Assembly (NCBI GenBank): GCA_016930715.1
Contig: JAFGGC010000013.1
Span: forward strand, 71,796 to 135,795
Origin: Endomicrobiales bacterium
GTDB taxonomy: Bacteria > Elusimicrobiota > Endomicrobiia > Endomicrobiales > JAFGGC01
Reading direction: 5' to 3'
DNA length: 64,000 nucleotides
Each line of letters opens with the position of its first letter. Within the stretch, counting starts at the first letter, position 1. Below are positions 33,580-41,061 of this stretch, one piece after another. The notes below the pieces were generated by a model. That model had not been told where the DNA came from. It was given only the letters and a program-made list of their open reading frames with translations, and did not search any database. Made by a program: the position numbers and the translations under genes.

Positions 33580-33602
33580 ACGAAGCTTTGCGTTTTATAG
33601 AA

Positions 33603-33636
33603 GGAGGCGGCTTGATTGATAAGCCGCCTCCTTTTT
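33603..33636 (+). terminator. Strong intrinsic terminator after the lipoprotein gene
   Basis: A perfect 11-bp stem: GGAGGCGGCTT at 33603-33613 pairs with AAGCCGCCTCC at 33621-33631 around a 7-base loop, followed by five T. It closes the envelope module. Confidence 0.95.
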
Positions 33637-33703: not shown

Positions 33704-34549
33704 ATGTCACCGATAAACAGGCTGATCAGGCAGGTATTGAAGGAAGACGAGGCTTTTAACGACGTTACGACCGGCGCCGTTAAACGCGCCGGAGAGGATG
33801 TGGCCGGTGTTTTTATCGCTAAAAAACCCGGAGTCATATGCGGCCTTTCGGTGGCGCACAGGGTGTTCAAGATAGTCGATAAAGCCTGCGTGTTCAGGCC
33901 TCTTTTGAAGGACGGCGCAAAAGTTAAAAAGGGGAGGCTGATAGCCGAAGTGAAGGGGCCTCTCAGGGCCGTCCTGGCGGCCGAGAGGACCGCGCTGAAT
34001 TTTTTGGGACGCCTGTCGGGAATAGCCACGCTGACGCGCAGGTTCGTCAAGAGGATACGCGGCACAAAGGCGATGATATACGATACCAGGAAAACAACCC
34101 CTGGCTTGAGGGATCTTGAAAAATACGCGGTTCTTTGCGGCGGCGGTAAGAACCACAGGATGAGCCTTAGGGACATGGCGCTTTTCAAGGACAACCACCT
34201 GAAACTGATCGATAATCTCAAGAAAACGGTATCAAGGCTCAAAAAAGAAAATCCGGGTCTTGTTGTGGAAATAGAATGCGAGAACATGCTTCAGGTCAGG
34301 CAGGCGGTCGAAGCCGGCGCCGACATCGTTATGCTCGATAACATGGGTATAGCGACGATGAAAAGGGCCATAAGGCTCGTCCGCGGGTTCAGGAAGAAGT
34401 CAAAGAATGATCTTCCGCATATCGAAGTATCGGGCGGCGTGAACCTCGGTTCGGTGAGGGAATTCGCTAAGCTCGGGGTTGACAGGATATCCACCGGCAG
34501 CATAACCCATTCCGCGCCGGCTCTGGACATTAGCATGGAGCTGCAGTGA
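33704..34549 (+). CDS. nadC: Nicotinate-nucleotide pyrophosphorylase (carboxylating)
   Basis: NadC converts quinolinate and PRPP to nicotinate mononucleotide in NAD synthesis. The 281-residue protein has DVTTGAV at the N-terminus (about 19-25), ERTALNFLGRLSGIAT (about 94-109), YDTRKTTPGLRDLEKYAV (about 126-143), GGGKNHRMSL (about 146-155) and KDNHL, all active-site blocks. nadA and nadB are not adjacent. The stop overlaps birA as TGATG. Confidence 0.97.
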   Translation: MSPINRLIRQVLKEDEAFNDVTTGAVKRAGEDVAGVFIAKKPGVICGLSVAHRVFKIVDKACVFRPLLKDGAKVKKGRLIAEVKGPLRAVLAAERTALNFLGRLSGIATLTRRFVKRIRGTKAMIYDTRKTTPGLRDLEKYAVLCGGGKNHRMSLRDMALFKDNHLKLIDNLKKTVSRLKKENPGLVVEIECENMLQVRQAVEAGADIVMLDNMGIATMKRAIRLVRGFRKKSKNDLPHIEVSGGVNLGSVREFAKLGVDRISTGSITHSAPALDISMELQ

Positions 34550-35502
34550 TGGATATAGAGGGAATATTGAGCAGCAGTGAGTTCCGTTCGGGCGAAGCCA
34601 TAGCCGAAAAGGCAGGAATATCGCGCGCGGCGGTGCACAAGAAGATAAAGAAACTGCGCGCCTTGGGGTATAATATCATCGGCGAGCGCAAACTCGGCTA
34701 CAAGCTTGTATCCGCGCCCGACAGACTGGACCCGAACGCCATTAAACGTGTTCTGTCAAGGAAAAACCTTGCGGATTATGATATAATCTTCAATGAGAAG
34801 CTCGGTTCGACACAGACCGAGGCCAAGCTTTCCGCGGACTCCGGCGCCGAGGATAAAACGATTTTTTTGTGCGAAGAGCAGTCGTCGGGTTACGGTAGGC
34901 TTAAAAGGGAATGGTTTTCGGGCAGAGGAGGGTTGTGGTTTTCAGTGGTCCTCAGGCCCGGGATAAGGCCTGAAGCGGCACCGCACTTGAATTTTGTCGC
35001 ATCGATGGCCGTTGTCCGAGCGGTTAAACGCATCTTTTGCGTTGACTGCCGGATCAAGTGGCCTAACGACGTGTTGACCCGTGACGGGAAAAAACTCTGC
35101 GGCATATTGACCGAGCTGTCTTCCGAGATAGGCAGGCTCAACTGGGCCGTTGTAGGCATAGGGTTCAACGTCAACAATGAGATTCCGGGAAGGCTGAAAG
35201 GCATTGCGTCGTCCCTTTCTGACCATACGGGCGCAATTATTGACAGGCAGGAGCTTTTTTGCGGTATAATCGCCGAGTTTGACAGTTTATATTCGATGTA
35301 TCTCAAAGAAGGTTTCGGCGGACTTGAGGGCGAATACAACAGGAGCTCGATAATGAACGGCCGCCGGGTCGCGGTTGAGTACGGCGGAACCGTGCTCAAA
35401 GGTTTTGTGAAAGGCATAGACAAAGAAGGTTTCCTTGTTTTAAAAACCGAAGAAGGCGGAATCAAAAAAGTGATCGCCGGCGACGTTAGGGTCTTAGAAT
35501 AG
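34549..35502 (+). CDS. birA: Biotin protein ligase with N-terminal HTH (BirA, bifunctional)
   Basis: 317 residues. The first 60 form a winged helix (ISRAAVHKKIKKLRALGY), so it may repress biotin genes as well as biotinylate carriers. The ligase domain has EQSSGYGRLKREWFSG (about 108-123; the usual G-R-G-R-x-G-R is altered to G-Y-G-R-L-K-R), KWPNDVL (about 167-173) and KLCGILTE (about 178-185). Its expected substrate, the carrier AccB, is encoded at about 61 kb. ATG 34549 is preferred over GTG 34546 because GGAG lies 7 bases upstream. Confidence 0.92.
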   Translation: MDIEGILSSSEFRSGEAIAEKAGISRAAVHKKIKKLRALGYNIIGERKLGYKLVSAPDRLDPNAIKRVLSRKNLADYDIIFNEKLGSTQTEAKLSADSGAEDKTIFLCEEQSSGYGRLKREWFSGRGGLWFSVVLRPGIRPEAAPHLNFVASMAVVRAVKRIFCVDCRIKWPNDVLTRDGKKLCGILTELSSEIGRLNWAVVGIGFNVNNEIPGRLKGIASSLSDHTGAIIDRQELFCGIIAEFDSLYSMYLKEGFGGLEGEYNRSSIMNGRRVAVEYGGTVLKGFVKGIDKEGFLVLKTEEGGIKKVIAGDVRVLE

Positions 35503-35524: not shown

Positions 35525-36367
35525 ATGAGTTTCAAAAATTCCATCGTATTGTTAAACCGGTCAGAAAAACATTTTACGGAATCGTTTTACTATCGAAGGG
35601 TGAAACTGGGCATTGACACGGCGATAGATGGTTCGGGTTACAACCTGGTCCAGGCGATGCAGGACAGCAGTCTCCCGGACAACGTTTCGGAGAAATGCGG
35701 CGTAGTATCGATCGCACCCCACGTCAACCACCAGTCGGTCGAGCTATTAAGAAAATCGAAAATGCCGTCGATTCTGATAAACTGCCGTTCTGAAGACATG
35801 AGCTGGGTCGACGTGGACAACGTGCGGGGAGCGATAACGATGACGGAATACCTCGTCGGATTAGGGCACAGGAATATACTGCTCGTAAACGGTTTCCCTG
35901 AAAGCCAGAACAGCATAGACCGGCAGAAAGGTTTCGTCGAAACCCTTCAAAGGCACAGCATTGAGTTCAATCCAAGGATGGTGATAAGCTGCGATTTCAG
36001 CGTGAGCCTTGCCTACGAAAGAATGAAGAATTTTCTCTCGCAGAACAAGAAAAGGGATTTTACCGCGATATTCTCGACCAACGACTACATGGCGGTCGGC
36101 ATAATCAGGGCTTTAACCGACGAGAACATAAAAGTCCCGGAAGACGTCGCCGTTGTGGGTTTTGACGACCTTGATTTCGCGTCGAATTTCTACATACCGC
36201 TTACGACTTACCGGCAGCCCTTTCCCAACATAGGTTTTGTCGCGACCAAGCTTCTGATGAAACAGATCGAAAACGGCAGGAGCGGGCCGCATCAGGTAGA
36301 ACTCATGGGCGAGCTGATCATCAGGGATTCCTGCGGGGCAAAGCTTAGAGTGGGGCAGGAACGTTAA
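35525..36367 (+). CDS. LacI/PurR-type ligand-binding domain without a DNA-binding domain
   Basis: A 280-residue protein aligned with the periplasmic-binding-protein-like sensor half of LacI regulators: VDVDNVRGAITMTEYLVGLGHRNILLV (about 96-122, in part), FSTNDYMAVGIIRAL (about 179-193), VPEDVAVVGFDDLDFASNF (about 200-218) and the PLTTYRQPFPNIG segment. A full LacI regulator carries about 60 more residues with an HTH and hinge; here the protein begins directly at the first strand. A clear GGAG site precedes ATG 35525. It probably senses a ligand and acts through a partner. Confidence 0.8.
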   Translation: MSFKNSIVLLNRSEKHFTESFYYRRVKLGIDTAIDGSGYNLVQAMQDSSLPDNVSEKCGVVSIAPHVNHQSVELLRKSKMPSILINCRSEDMSWVDVDNVRGAITMTEYLVGLGHRNILLVNGFPESQNSIDRQKGFVETLQRHSIEFNPRMVISCDFSVSLAYERMKNFLSQNKKRDFTAIFSTNDYMAVGIIRALTDENIKVPEDVAVVGFDDLDFASNFYIPLTTYRQPFPNIGFVATKLLMKQIENGRSGPHQVELMGELIIRDSCGAKLRVGQER

Positions 36368-36374
36368 ACATATT

Positions 36375-37013
36375 ATGGACGAAAATATTGCATGGCACCG
36401 CCAGGTTACGCTTGATAAACTTGCCGAAAAACTCACCAATAACAGGTTCAACGCGACAATCGCACGCGACGCCGCAGACGCAGCAAAAAAAATCCTTGAA
36501 CTGATACAGCCCTCAGAATCGGTGGCTTTGGGCGGCTCTCAGACCGTTAAAACGCTAAAGATCGCCGAGGCGCTTGACGACAGGAAGCAGAAGGTGATAC
36601 GGCCTCTGCCGGGCGCAAAATTCGACGATACCCTCAGGACAAGAAGGGAGGCGCTTCTTGCCGATGTCTATATCGCGAGCCCCAACGCGGTGACGATGGA
36701 CGGCAGTCTTGTTTTTGTGGACAAGATAGGCAACAGGGCGGCCGGCATGATGTTCGGCCCCAAGAAGGTCATCGCGGTAGCGGGTTTCAATAAGGTAGTT
36801 AACGGCGAAAACGACGCGCGGGAACGCGTGAAGAATACGGCGGGCCCCCTCAATGCCAAAAGGCTGAAACTCAAGACCCCCTGCGCGGCCTCGGGCGCGT
36901 GTTCGGACTGCGATTCGGAACAGAGGATCTGCAATATCTACGTGACGCTGAAAAAAAGACCGTCCTATACCGAATATCACGTCATACTTCTCCCCGAAGA
37001 CCTTGGTTACTAA
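36375..37013 (+). CDS. LUD-domain (LutC/YkgG-like) protein with a Cys cluster
   Basis: 212 residues. The LUD domain spans most of the protein: ESVALGGSQTVKTL (about 48-61), ADVYIASPNAVTMDGSLVFVD (about 97-117, in part), GNRAAGMMFGPKKVIAVAG. Near the C-terminus the pattern C-x5-C-x2-C-x5-C (residues about 172-187, in PCAASGACSDCDSEQRIC) suggests a metal site. LutC homologues take part in lactate oxidation to pyruvate with LutA and LutB, which are absent here. It lies two bases before rex. Confidence 0.85.
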   Translation: MDENIAWHRQVTLDKLAEKLTNNRFNATIARDAADAAKKILELIQPSESVALGGSQTVKTLKIAEALDDRKQKVIRPLPGAKFDDTLRTRREALLADVYIASPNAVTMDGSLVFVDKIGNRAAGMMFGPKKVIAVAGFNKVVNGENDARERVKNTAGPLNAKRLKLKTPCAASGACSDCDSEQRICNIYVTLKKRPSYTEYHVILLPEDLGY

Positions 37014-37015
37014 AA

Positions 37016-37654
37016 ATGACAAGAGAACCGAAAAAAATATCGATGAAGGTCGTGCCCAGGCTTTCACAGTATTACAGGATTATTTACGACAGAGACTCAA
37101 AGGACATGGTTTCCTCGAACGACCTTTCCGTGGCGACAGGTTTCACGGCGGCGCAGGTAAGAAAGGACCTTACCTATTTCGGGCAGTTCGGATATCCCGG
37201 GAAAGGGTATAATGTCGGCGAGCTCAAGGGCTCCCTCAAAAGAATACTCGGGCTTGACAGGAGATGGAGGGTGGCGATCATCGGCACCGGGAACCTCGGC
37301 ATGGCGCTGCTGGGTTACAGGGGCTTCAGGGAGCAGGGGTTTGAGATCGTCGCGGCTTTCGATTTCGACAAAAGAAAGACAGGACGCGTGATAAACGGCG
37401 TAAAGGTTTTCGATATAGGCCAGCTTCGCCGGGTACTGGAGAAAAACGGCATAAACATGGCACTGCTTACCATTCCCAGAAACTCCGCCCAGAATACCGC
37501 CGACGAACTCGTGAAATGCGGCATCAAGGCGATACTCAATTTCGCGCCGGTAAACCTGAAGCTGCCTTCGGGCGTCAAGGCAAGGAACATAGATATGTCC
37601 ATGGAGCTTGAGAGCCTGTCGTTTCTTTCGGTACAGAACGGGGAGCAGGAATGA
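37016..37654 (+). CDS. rex: Redox-sensing transcriptional repressor Rex
   Basis: A 212-residue repressor that senses NADH/NAD+. The N-terminal winged helix (about 1-75) includes SNDLSVATGFTAAQVRKDL and the FGQFGYPGKGY segment. The Rossmann domain has IGTGNLGMALL (about 86-96) and a domain-swap C-terminal helix. The start is ATG 37016; the frame is open further upstream inside the LUD gene but the family starts here. NAD synthesis (nadC) and the LUD protein in the same operon support a redox theme. Confidence 0.94.
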   Translation: MTREPKKISMKVVPRLSQYYRIIYDRDSKDMVSSNDLSVATGFTAAQVRKDLTYFGQFGYPGKGYNVGELKGSLKRILGLDRRWRVAIIGTGNLGMALLGYRGFREQGFEIVAAFDFDKRKTGRVINGVKVFDIGQLRRVLEKNGINMALLTIPRNSAQNTADELVKCGIKAILNFAPVNLKLPSGVKARNIDMSMELESLSFLSVQNGEQE

Positions 37655-38778
37655 GAAGGCTCAATATCGCGCAGGTCTCGTTTCTGATAGCGTGCGGGGC
37701 GGCGCTGCAGCTTGCGGAACAATTCATACCGATTCCCATACCTCTTCCGGGCCTGAAAATCGGCCTTGCCAACATAAGCACGCTACTGGGCCTTATGCTT
37801 TTCGGAGCGCCGGTGGCGTTCCAGGTGGCCGTGTTCAGGCCGGTTTTGACCAGCATTGCCAACGGAACGTTCATGTCGCCGTGGCTTATCTTAAGTTTCT
37901 GCGGTTCGTTGGCGAGTTTTTTTATCATGGTATCCCTTTTTTCGCTGTTTAAGAGCAGGAACGCGGCTTTTATAATAACCTTGAGCATAATAAGCGCCGT
38001 GACGCACAACGCCGCGGAGCTGGTCGTGGCGTATTACTGGCTGATACCTCACGCCGTGGTTTTCGCAATAGCGCCCGTGCTTCTGTTAATGGCGGTAGTG
38101 GGCGGGTATTTCGTGGGATGGTCGGCGGATTTCGTCTATAAGAGAATCGAAAAAGAGAAATACGAAAACCTCCCCGATACCGAAAGAACTGAAAATGACC
38201 CGGAAATAGGGGCGCTTGAACTAAAGGACAAGGTGAGAATAACCGCCGCTTTCATACTTGTCATAAGCACGATATTCTGGCGCACGGCGCAGATGTACGG
38301 CATATTGATTTCGGTAGTTCTCTTTTTCATGTTCATTTACGGTATCAAACCGTCGGAAGCGTTCAAAAAAGTGTCTGCGCTTTGGCCGATACTGGTCTTC
38401 AGCTTCCTGCTTCCGGTCTTTTTTTCGCCGGAGGGCCGGATCCTTTTCGAGTGGAAATTCGTCAGGATAGGTGTTGAAGGCCTGATGGAAGGTCTTCTTT
38501 TCTCATTGAGGCTGATTCTTCTCATATTGATAAGCGTCTGGGTCGGAGTGGGGAATCCGTCCGAGATATCGAAGGAGCTTGCGTGGATACTCTCTCCGCT
38601 GAGATACTTCCATTTCGCGGTGAACAGGATACCGAGGATGACGTCCCTGTCCCTTTCGTTCCTTCCGGTAGTCTGGGAAAGGATCTCGAAGACCAAACCC
38701 AGGACTTTAAAGGGGATACTGGAGACCCTTTCGGTGTTTTTCGTTGAACTTGACAGCAACCTACAGGAAAAAGAATAA
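37651..38778 (+). CDS. Fused Gx-transporter (S-like) and EcfT-like membrane protein
   Basis: A 375-residue polytopic protein. Residues about 1-165 match the Gx transporter family (called heptaprenyl diphosphate synthase component I in older annotation), with the PIPLPGLKIGLANISTLLGLM motif and five or six helices. After a charged linker (about 165-190), residues 190-375 resemble the EcfT/CbiQ transmembrane component, including LSFLPVVWERI where the coupling helices begin. The C-terminal Ala-Arg-Gly coupling motifs are not found, and no EcfA ATPase gene lies nearby. It overlaps rex by ATGA. Confidence 0.75.
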   Translation: MRRLNIAQVSFLIACGAALQLAEQFIPIPIPLPGLKIGLANISTLLGLMLFGAPVAFQVAVFRPVLTSIANGTFMSPWLILSFCGSLASFFIMVSLFSLFKSRNAAFIITLSIISAVTHNAAELVVAYYWLIPHAVVFAIAPVLLLMAVVGGYFVGWSADFVYKRIEKEKYENLPDTERTENDPEIGALELKDKVRITAAFILVISTIFWRTAQMYGILISVVLFFMFIYGIKPSEAFKKVSALWPILVFSFLLPVFFSPEGRILFEWKFVRIGVEGLMEGLLFSLRLILLILISVWVGVGNPSEISKELAWILSPLRYFHFAVNRIPRMTSLSLSFLPVVWERISKTKPRTLKGILETLSVFFVELDSNLQEKE

Positions 38779-39808: not shown

Positions 39809-40394
39809 GACGATCCAGAAATTAAGAGCAATGACCGGAGCGGGCATTATGGACTGCAAGGCGGCCCTGGCCCATTCGAAGGATGACATAGAAAAGGCGA
39901 TACAGTATTTGAGGGAAAAAGGGGTCGCTTCGGCGGTCAAGAAAGCGGAAAGGACCGCCAAGCAGGGGCTTGTTTCGTCCTACATACACGCCGGCGGGAA
40001 GCTGGGGGTCCTGGTGGAAGTGAACTGCGAGACTGATTTCGTGGCAAGGACCGAAGATTTCCAGAACCTTGTCAAGGAATTGGCCATGCAGGTGGCAGCG
40101 GCGAACCCTCTTTACATAAATAAGGACGACATGCCTCAGGAAGTCGTGGACAAGGAAAAGGAAATTTACAAGGCGCAGCTCAAGGAAGAAAAGAAACCGG
40201 AAAAGGTGATAGAAAAGATCATCGAGGGCAAACTCGAGAAGTTTTACACGCAGGTCTGTCTCGTTGACCAGCCTTATATCAGGGACACGTCCGGAAAACA
40301 GAAAATAAAAGACGTCATAACCCAAGCCATAGCGAAGATCGGCGAGAACATCGTAGTGAAGCGTTTCGCGAGGTTCAGGGTCGGGGAAGAATAG
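39792..40394 (+). CDS. tsf: Elongation factor Ts, short form
   Basis: A 200-residue EF-Ts, nucleotide exchange factor for EF-Tu. The N-terminal UBA-like domain has [16 protein letters not shown] (about 12-27), and [13 protein letters not shown] (about 82-94) is the core motif. It has one copy of the dimerisation subdomain, like the short Thermus form rather than the 283-residue E. coli form. Start ATG 39792 with GAGAGG upstream, inside the end of rpsB. Confidence 0.96.
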
Positions 40395-40400
40395 ATAATT

Positions 40401-40484
40401 CAGGTAAAAGTTGAAAGGTGCAAGTTGGAAGTTGGTTTTTTTGTCTGCCATGGCGTTCACTTTTTAACATTTACCTTTTACCTG
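40401..40484. repeat. Inverted heptamer array between tsf and frr
   Basis: The left arm holds four 7-bp units at 40404-40431 (first two GTAAAAG, TTGAAAG); the right arm holds four at 40454-40481. CAGGTAAAAG (40401-40410) pairs perfectly with CTTTTACCTG (40475-40484). The rest pairs only partly because units differ. It fills the gap where pyrH is often found. Confidence 0.8.
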
Positions 40485-40500
40485 TTTTTAGGGAGGTTTT

Positions 40501-41061
40501 ATGATTGTTAAAACCATCGTTGCCCAGGGCGAAGAGCCGATGAAAAGGACCTTGGAAAAAATGAAAGGCGATTTTGCGGCTTTGAGGACGGGCAGGGCCA
40601 ACACCGCACTGGTTGAAAACCTAAAAGTTGAAAGCTACGGGACCGTGATGCCAATAAACCAGCTTGCCGGCCTGGGCATTCCCGACGCCAGGACCATAGA
40701 GATAAAGCCGTGGGACCACTCTCAGCTCCAGAACATAGAAAAAGCTATTCAGAAATCGGAGCTCGGGCTCACTCCCATGAACGACGGAAAACTGATACGC
40801 CTCTCGCTTCCCAAGCTTACCGAAGAAAGAAGAAAAGAGATAATCAAGATAACGCATAAAATGGCCGAAGACTTCAAGGTCGCGATAAGGAACGAACGCC
40901 GCCAGATCATTGAGAGCATAAAGCAGGCAGAAAAGGACAAAAAGATAACCGAAGACGACAGGAAAAAGGGCGAAGCGGAACTGCAGAAACTGACCGACTC
41001 CTACATAAAAAAGATCGACGATGTTTTGGCGCTGAAGGAAAAAGAAGTGATGGAAGTATAA
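40501..41061 (+). CDS. frr: Ribosome recycling factor
   Basis: A 186-residue RRF that splits post-termination ribosomes with EF-G. LRTGRANTALVENLKVESYG (about 26-45) and the helices ending in RLSLPKLTEERRKEI (about 101-115) are diagnostic of the three-helix bundle and hinge. GGGAGG precedes ATG 40501. pyrH, often between tsf and frr, is not present. Confidence 0.97.
   Translation: MIVKTIVAQGEEPMKRTLEKMKGDFAALRTGRANTALVENLKVESYGTVMPINQLAGLGIPDARTIEIKPWDHSQLQNIEKAIQKSELGLTPMNDGKLIRLSLPKLTEERRKEIIKITHKMAEDFKVAIRNERRQIIESIKQAEKDKKITEDDRKKGEAELQKLTDSYIKKIDDVLALKEKEVMEV

Follow-up and report, generated by a model that had tools for sequence, protein, structure and literature searches.

An EetB-like S-component fused to an EcfT-like domain that lacks ATPase coupling motifs in an Endomicrobiales genome

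Results

A fusion gene at the end of a co-directional cluster

Within the 64,000-nucleotide stretch analysed here (the window), which belongs to a 92.5%-complete MAG, six co-directional genes in the order nadC-birA-PBP-LUD-rex-fusion end in a single uninterrupted open reading frame of 375 codons. The cluster and the parts of its last gene are as follows.

33599..33635, + strand: strong terminator-like hairpin, upstream bound of the cluster (consensus match only)
33704..34549, + strand: nadC, quinolinate phosphoribosyltransferase, first gene of the cluster (Pfam)
34546..35502, + strand: birA, biotin-protein ligase/regulator (Pfam)
35525..36367, + strand: LacI-type ligand-binding protein (PF13377), no Pfam HTH match (Pfam)
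36375..37013, + strand: LUD-domain protein (PF02589; Pfam)
37046..37654, + strand: Rex-type NADH-sensing repressor (PF06971 + PF02629; Pfam)
37651..37654, + strand: ATGA overlap of the rex stop and the fusion start (junction sequence)
37651..38778, + strand: fusion of an EetB/Gx-type S-component and an EcfT-like domain, 375 aa (ORF, Pfam, AlphaFold)
37684..38133, + strand: S-component domain PF07456, aa 12-161 (Pfam, AlphaFold, Foldseek)
38161..38220, + strand: linker, aa 171-190, low-confidence (AlphaFold, orthologue comparison)
38221..38772, + strand: EcfT-like domain, aa 191-374 (Pfam, family profile, AlphaFold, Foldseek)
38626..38772, + strand: remnant of two cytosolic coupling helices that lacks both A-R-G motifs, aa 326-347 and 353-374 (AlphaFold, family profile, motif count)

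The six genes form an apparent operon, with 4-nt overlaps at the nadC/birA and rex/fusion junctions, and translational coupling from rex to the fusion is likely from the junction sequence. No Rex operator was found near the operon; the one match in the window lies far away and is at chance level. An earlier note on this DNA had read the position after rex as a hint of a redox cofactor or isoprenoid substrate. The fusion does overlap rex, but the hint is weak, in that a second genome of the phylum (G003) has the order nadC-birA-nitroreductase-PBP-fusion-rpsB with no rex upstream of the fusion, and another (G004) has LUD-rex-rpsB and no fusion.

Some neighbors recur elsewhere. In G003, too, a LacI-type ligand-binding protein lies directly upstream of the fusion (L040:5348-6190), and no DNA-binding domain was detected in it; a LUD-like reading frame, recognized by its N-terminal sequence only, also precedes an EetA-fusion pair in locus L049. 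Downstream of the window fusion are the housekeeping genes rpsB-tsf-frr-uppS-cdsA-dxr-ispG; in most of the relatives that were checked, no fusion accompanies rpsB-tsf. In four genomes (G006, G002, G298 and G296; loci L151, L154, L158 and L159), genes that resemble RnfA/RnfB, judged by eye from their translations, stand directly 5' of rpsB, in the place of the window's rex and fusion. The gene for UMP kinase, pyrH, is missing between tsf and frr (window 40394-40501) and is kept just after rpsB-tsf in 13 of 13 relatives checked; searching the whole MAG with a profile gave no match above the cut-off and one weak hit on contig C17, such that its absence reflects either assembly loss or a real replacement.

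Architecture and fold of the fusion protein

The N-terminal half matches PF07456 at aa 12-161 (E 2e-30, 106 bits against a cut-off of 30), over profile positions 1-146 of 147. The C-terminal half matches PF02361, CbiQ (EcfT), at aa 194-346, narrowly above the curated cut-off (E 6.5e-6, 26.4 bits against 25). Both domains occur in all 23 fusions scanned, and a family profile made from an alignment of 23 fusions matched the EcfT chains 4huq_T, 4hzu_T and 5d3m_D at E-values of 3.7e-35 to 1.4e-26, the best of these matches, to 4huq_T, running over the T half.

The AlphaFold model of the window protein (41 sequences in the input) has a mean pLDDT of 86 and a pTM of 0.79. Its S half has six predicted membrane helices, the first of which keeps an AxxxA motif as read from the sequence (aa 14-18, ACGAA). 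The linker falls below a pLDDT of 50 at aa 171-182, and its identity to the linker of the G003 orthologue is only 9.5%. With Foldseek, the modeled C half matched EcfT 7nnu_D at probability 1.0, and the closest folds to the N half were those of TmRibU (5kbw/5kc4); for 5kbw_B the TM-score by target length is 0.68 and the probability 1.0, with an E-value of 0.037 that is modest by itself. Pfam-type profile searches gave no match of the S half to the NiaX and BioY families.

Judged from the family profile and the predicted fold, the T half is homologous to EcfT, and therefore the objection that this half might not be homologous falls away. The same two kinds of match rule out a spurious similarity. 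Open reading frame, Pfam, profile and model thus bear out the description of one 375-residue chain carrying an S-component and an EcfT-like domain.

An intact gene with relatives in many phyla

The earlier note allowed that an assembly frameshift might have merged two genes. The closest relative is a full-length orthologue in G003 with 53.6% amino-acid identity, and many further fusions share 25-33% identity with the window protein. Between the window and G003 genes, codon position 2 is 77% identical and fourfold third positions 33%, i.e., saturated, and this combination of saturated synonymous sites with a conserved protein holds in both halves of the fusion. The orthologue, the further fusions and the codon-position pattern rule out the frameshift, and the fusion is genuine.

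Searching for the same architecture elsewhere, with genome-wide scans that are profile searches, returned 38 distinct fusions, spread over Elusimicrobia and seven or more further groups. Within the phylum, 19 of 341 genomes carry one (a twentieth, G153, has a CbiQ-only fragment and was left out), and with two copies in G003 there are 20 loci. A scan of GTDB genomes, made with a 4-row alignment, found fusions outside the phylum in Desulfobacterota (Desulfobacteraceae/Desulfosarcina), Omnitrophota, WOR-3, KSB1, Poribacteria, Armatimonadota and Planctomycetota, and S-domain matches without a fusion in Nitrospinota, Gammaproteobacteria and Bacillota; a plasmid search gave a single weak S-domain match, in Fusobacterium. 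That the two modules are separate genes in most lineages is true of Bacillota, as in the literature, but in other phyla fusions are common. A quick tree separates the fusions from the stand-alone proteins at its midpoint, with a support of 84 that is not strong.

Coupling motifs and the missing ATPase

What defines ECF transporters is an ATP motor that works through EcfT. The coupling runs through two A-R-G motifs of EcfT, which in BioMNY crosslink to the ATPase, and replacement of both A-R-G arginines abolishes that complex (PMC3246461). We located the corresponding positions by counting from a conserved proline (P339), the first motif lying at +15 to +17 in the EcfT of 4huq. Neither motif is present in the window protein: in it and in its G003 orthologue a shortened loop replaces the first A-R-G segment, and the window chain ends where the second would start. 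Among the 38 distinct fusions, the first motif is kept in two (G189 and G208) and the second in none. It had been proposed that the C-terminal half stops before the coupling helices; the motifs are indeed absent, but both C-terminal helices (aa 326-347 and 353-374) are still predicted in the AlphaFold model. The two exceptional fusions (L051/L052) come from one genus, and their A-R-G stands exactly where EcfT has its first coupling motif; in their relatives A-A-G or A-G-G takes its place, which looks like a motif in decay.

The absence of an EcfA gene near the fusion, remarked on earlier, extends to the whole genome within the limits of a 92.5%-complete MAG. The profile for ECF ATPases has 25 matches there, the best scoring 165 bits where the cut-off is 315. 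The genome encodes at least ten intact ABC ATPases; the ten that were classified individually, the weaker profile matches lying outside this set, all fall short of the ECF cut-off, and other families fit them as well or better (MsbA, OppD-like, UgpC, PstB, LolD-like, LptB). At the level of profiles, and of a MAG this complete, no EcfA is hidden elsewhere in the genome. The genome also has no CbiQ-family match besides the fusion, hence no other EcfT. Ten of 18 other fusion genomes have no ECF ATPase match at E <= 1e-52, and in the remaining eight, nine ATPase loci were inspected, each of which adjoins a T component of its own; most belong to cobalt/nickel-type operons with CbiM/CbiN-like genes.

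Linkage to flavinylation genes and divergence of the window copy

In Listeria, EetB (PF07456) binds FAD; EetB, the EcfT-like FmnA and EcfA/A' are together needed to supply FAD to the ApbE-like FmnB, with EetB-FmnA exporting FAD for ApbE (PMC9973259). The fusions collected here are linked to apbE, eetA and FMN_bind loci. In the phylum, apbE lies within 3 kb of the fusion (<=3 kb) in 17 of 20 loci, often with EetA/NusG_II and FMN_bind genes; across all groups, 34 non-redundant fusion loci were profiled, of which 27 have apbE, 24 an EetA-like NusG_II gene and 20 a gene of the FMN_bind type. Of the 34, 32 have one or more of the tested flavinylation-locus neighbors, the exceptions being only the window and its G003 orthologue. 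From this linkage, we infer that the fusion family consists of transporters of the flavin pathway.

Two families with no Pfam match also recur in these loci. One (L070:7020-8465) is present in 20 of 34; in flavinylation loci of different phyla it lies 3' of the fusion, and in L041/L043 it resembles a secreted outer-membrane protein. The other (L130:1586-2089), of about 160 aa and like a membrane protein, occurs in 10 of 34.

The window copy departs from the rest of the family. With the rpsB-linked copy of G003 it forms a fully supported two-member clade in the quick tree, on a long stem of 1.2 changes per column; the nearest neighbor outside this pair is that of L049 (G296), where a LUD-like reading frame is followed by a NusG_II gene and the fusion. 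Positions conserved among apbE-linked fusions are altered in the window/G003 pair, among them Q123E, in the pocket region, and H30, T64P, S67T, G110 and W143. No apbE, eetA or FMN_bind gene stands at the window locus, and profile searches of the 92.5%-complete MAG found no ApbE, FMN_bind or NusG_II. The genome does have a ribB-type gene, which makes flavin import by an auxotroph unlikely. These patterns suggest that the window/G003 pair has moved away from flavinylation.

Discussion

Because the searches for ApbE, FMN_bind and NusG_II found none of them, the gene sits in an apparent operon with a redox and NAD-biotin character, and the conserved residues have changed, the window copy is probably a retargeted paralogue, a conclusion based on sequence divergence and gene context in two genomes. 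We give an even chance to the view that it belongs, as a divergent member, to a group, spanning multiple phyla, of single-chain ECF-type carriers that have lost their ATPase contacts, and that its cargo has been retargeted. Most likely, as far as the sequence can indicate, that cargo would be a different small redox cofactor or a precursor of one.

A first alternative is that flavin export has been retained: the window protein would release FAD, FMN or riboflavin into the periplasm, to serve an ApbE missed in the incomplete MAG or to act as a free flavin shuttle. The function of EetB within PF07456, the apbE linkage across the family and the capacity for riboflavin synthesis, judged from the ribB-type gene, all speak for it. 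Against it, ApbE, FMN_bind and NusG_II are absent together, and genome incompleteness seldom explains three such absences unless the genes shared one lost contig; G003 retains an apbE-linked copy besides its rpsB-linked one, and the residues conserved in apbE-linked members are altered. On balance we hold continued flavin export to be unlikely, if the most credible of the alternatives.

Could the protein instead import a vitamin or an NAD or biotin precursor (nicotinate, quinolinate, biotin) for NadC and BirA, under the control of Rex and NADH? ECF S-components usually import, the co-directional cluster is tight, with its 4-nt overlaps, and the order nadC-birA-PBP-fusion is common to the window genome and G003. 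However, the remaining neighbors differ, G003 having a nitroreductase and the window LUD and rex, and G004 has LUD-rex beside rpsB without the fusion; the neighborhood may therefore be coincidental. The S half, moreover, matches neither the NiaX nor the BioY family. Precursor import seems to us rather improbable.

The two options raised earlier for energizing the protein were an ATPase-independent carrier and a partner of a shared ATPase. As no EcfA was found in the genome and the protein has lost its contact motifs, a shared ECF ATPase is unsupported, and the ATPase-independent carrier is the better of the two. A non-ECF ABC ATPase might still serve as a shared motor, given the ten or more encoded and the two C-terminal helices that remain, but no EcfA-type ATPase is among them, those examined belong to recognizable other families, and both A-R-G contacts are gone, the first through the shortened loop; we consider such a motor quite improbable. 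Least credible by far is the handling of isoprenoid diphosphates, as in the literal Pfam name of PF07456 ('heptaprenyl diphosphate synthase component I') and the downstream uppS, cdsA, dxr and ispG: a polyprenyl synthetase gene does occur in 8 of 34 fusion loci, but those eight also have EetA-like and, mostly, other flavinylation genes, none was found at the window fusion's locus, the downstream genes are housekeeping ones beside an rpsB-tsf that in most relatives checked has no fusion, and the name takes no account of the demonstrated binding and export of FAD by EetB (PMC9973259).

How would a retargeted, ATPase-independent carrier operate? We infer that the EetB-like S-component is held covalently by an EcfT-derived scaffold without ATPase contacts, and that the S half may alternate or topple against the tethered T half. 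In apbE-linked members FAD would be carried in this way from the cytosol to the periplasm for ApbE, with no ATP; the irreversible use of FAD by ApbE on the outside would make net export downhill. The window copy would perform ATPase-independent facilitated transport of another small redox cofactor or precursor. Transport by S-components without an ECF module has precedent in BtuM and BioY (PMC6072759). Two observations weigh on the other side: the fusions of G189 and G208 still have the first A-R-G motif, and, since the MAG is 92.5% complete, an ApbE or an ATPase could sit in the missing part.

The system is built from known parts, and EetB-EcfT fusions have been mentioned before (WP_021725833.1, MBE6480012.1 and MBQ3267887.1; PMC9973259); these have the same domain pair in one polypeptide, and the available part of that paper does not discuss their coupling motifs or ATPase-free genomes. 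Like the EetB-FmnA-EcfA-EcfA' system of Listeria monocytogenes (PMC9973259), the window protein has an S half of the EetB family and an EcfT-like T half, as in FmnA, and most fusions sit in apbE/eetA loci. In contrast to that system, the fusion is one chain rather than two, its A-R-G motifs are lost, and no EcfA/A' or ApbE was found in the window genome. Because FAD export by EetB-FmnA in Listeria needs EcfA/A', dispensing with the ATPase would mean a real change of mechanism. BtuM and solitary BioY likewise are S-components in genomes without an ECF module (PMC6072759), but they have no T domain, whereas the window fusion retains a conserved, motif-less one. Canonical EcfT (PDB 4huq, 5d3m, 7nnu) resembles the T half in fold, and in sequence up to the coupling region, but differs in having both A-R-G ATPase contacts and in not being joined to an S-component.

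Taken as a whole, the fusions may be multi-phylum ECF-derived exporters without an ATP motor, in which EcfT has become a passive tether and flavinylation pulls FAD outward, the window protein being a second step, re-addressed to another cargo once it had left the flavinylation locus; we advance this wider reading tentatively, at somewhat short of even confidence. The retention of EcfT without its motor contacts in a widespread lineage raises the question of what EcfT does alone, and the fusion offers a natural one-gene system in which to study toppling without ATP. The family may point to a supply route of FAD for periplasmic flavoproteins in many Gram-negative anaerobes, and the window copy would be a test case for the change of a carrier's cargo after its original pathway has been lost.
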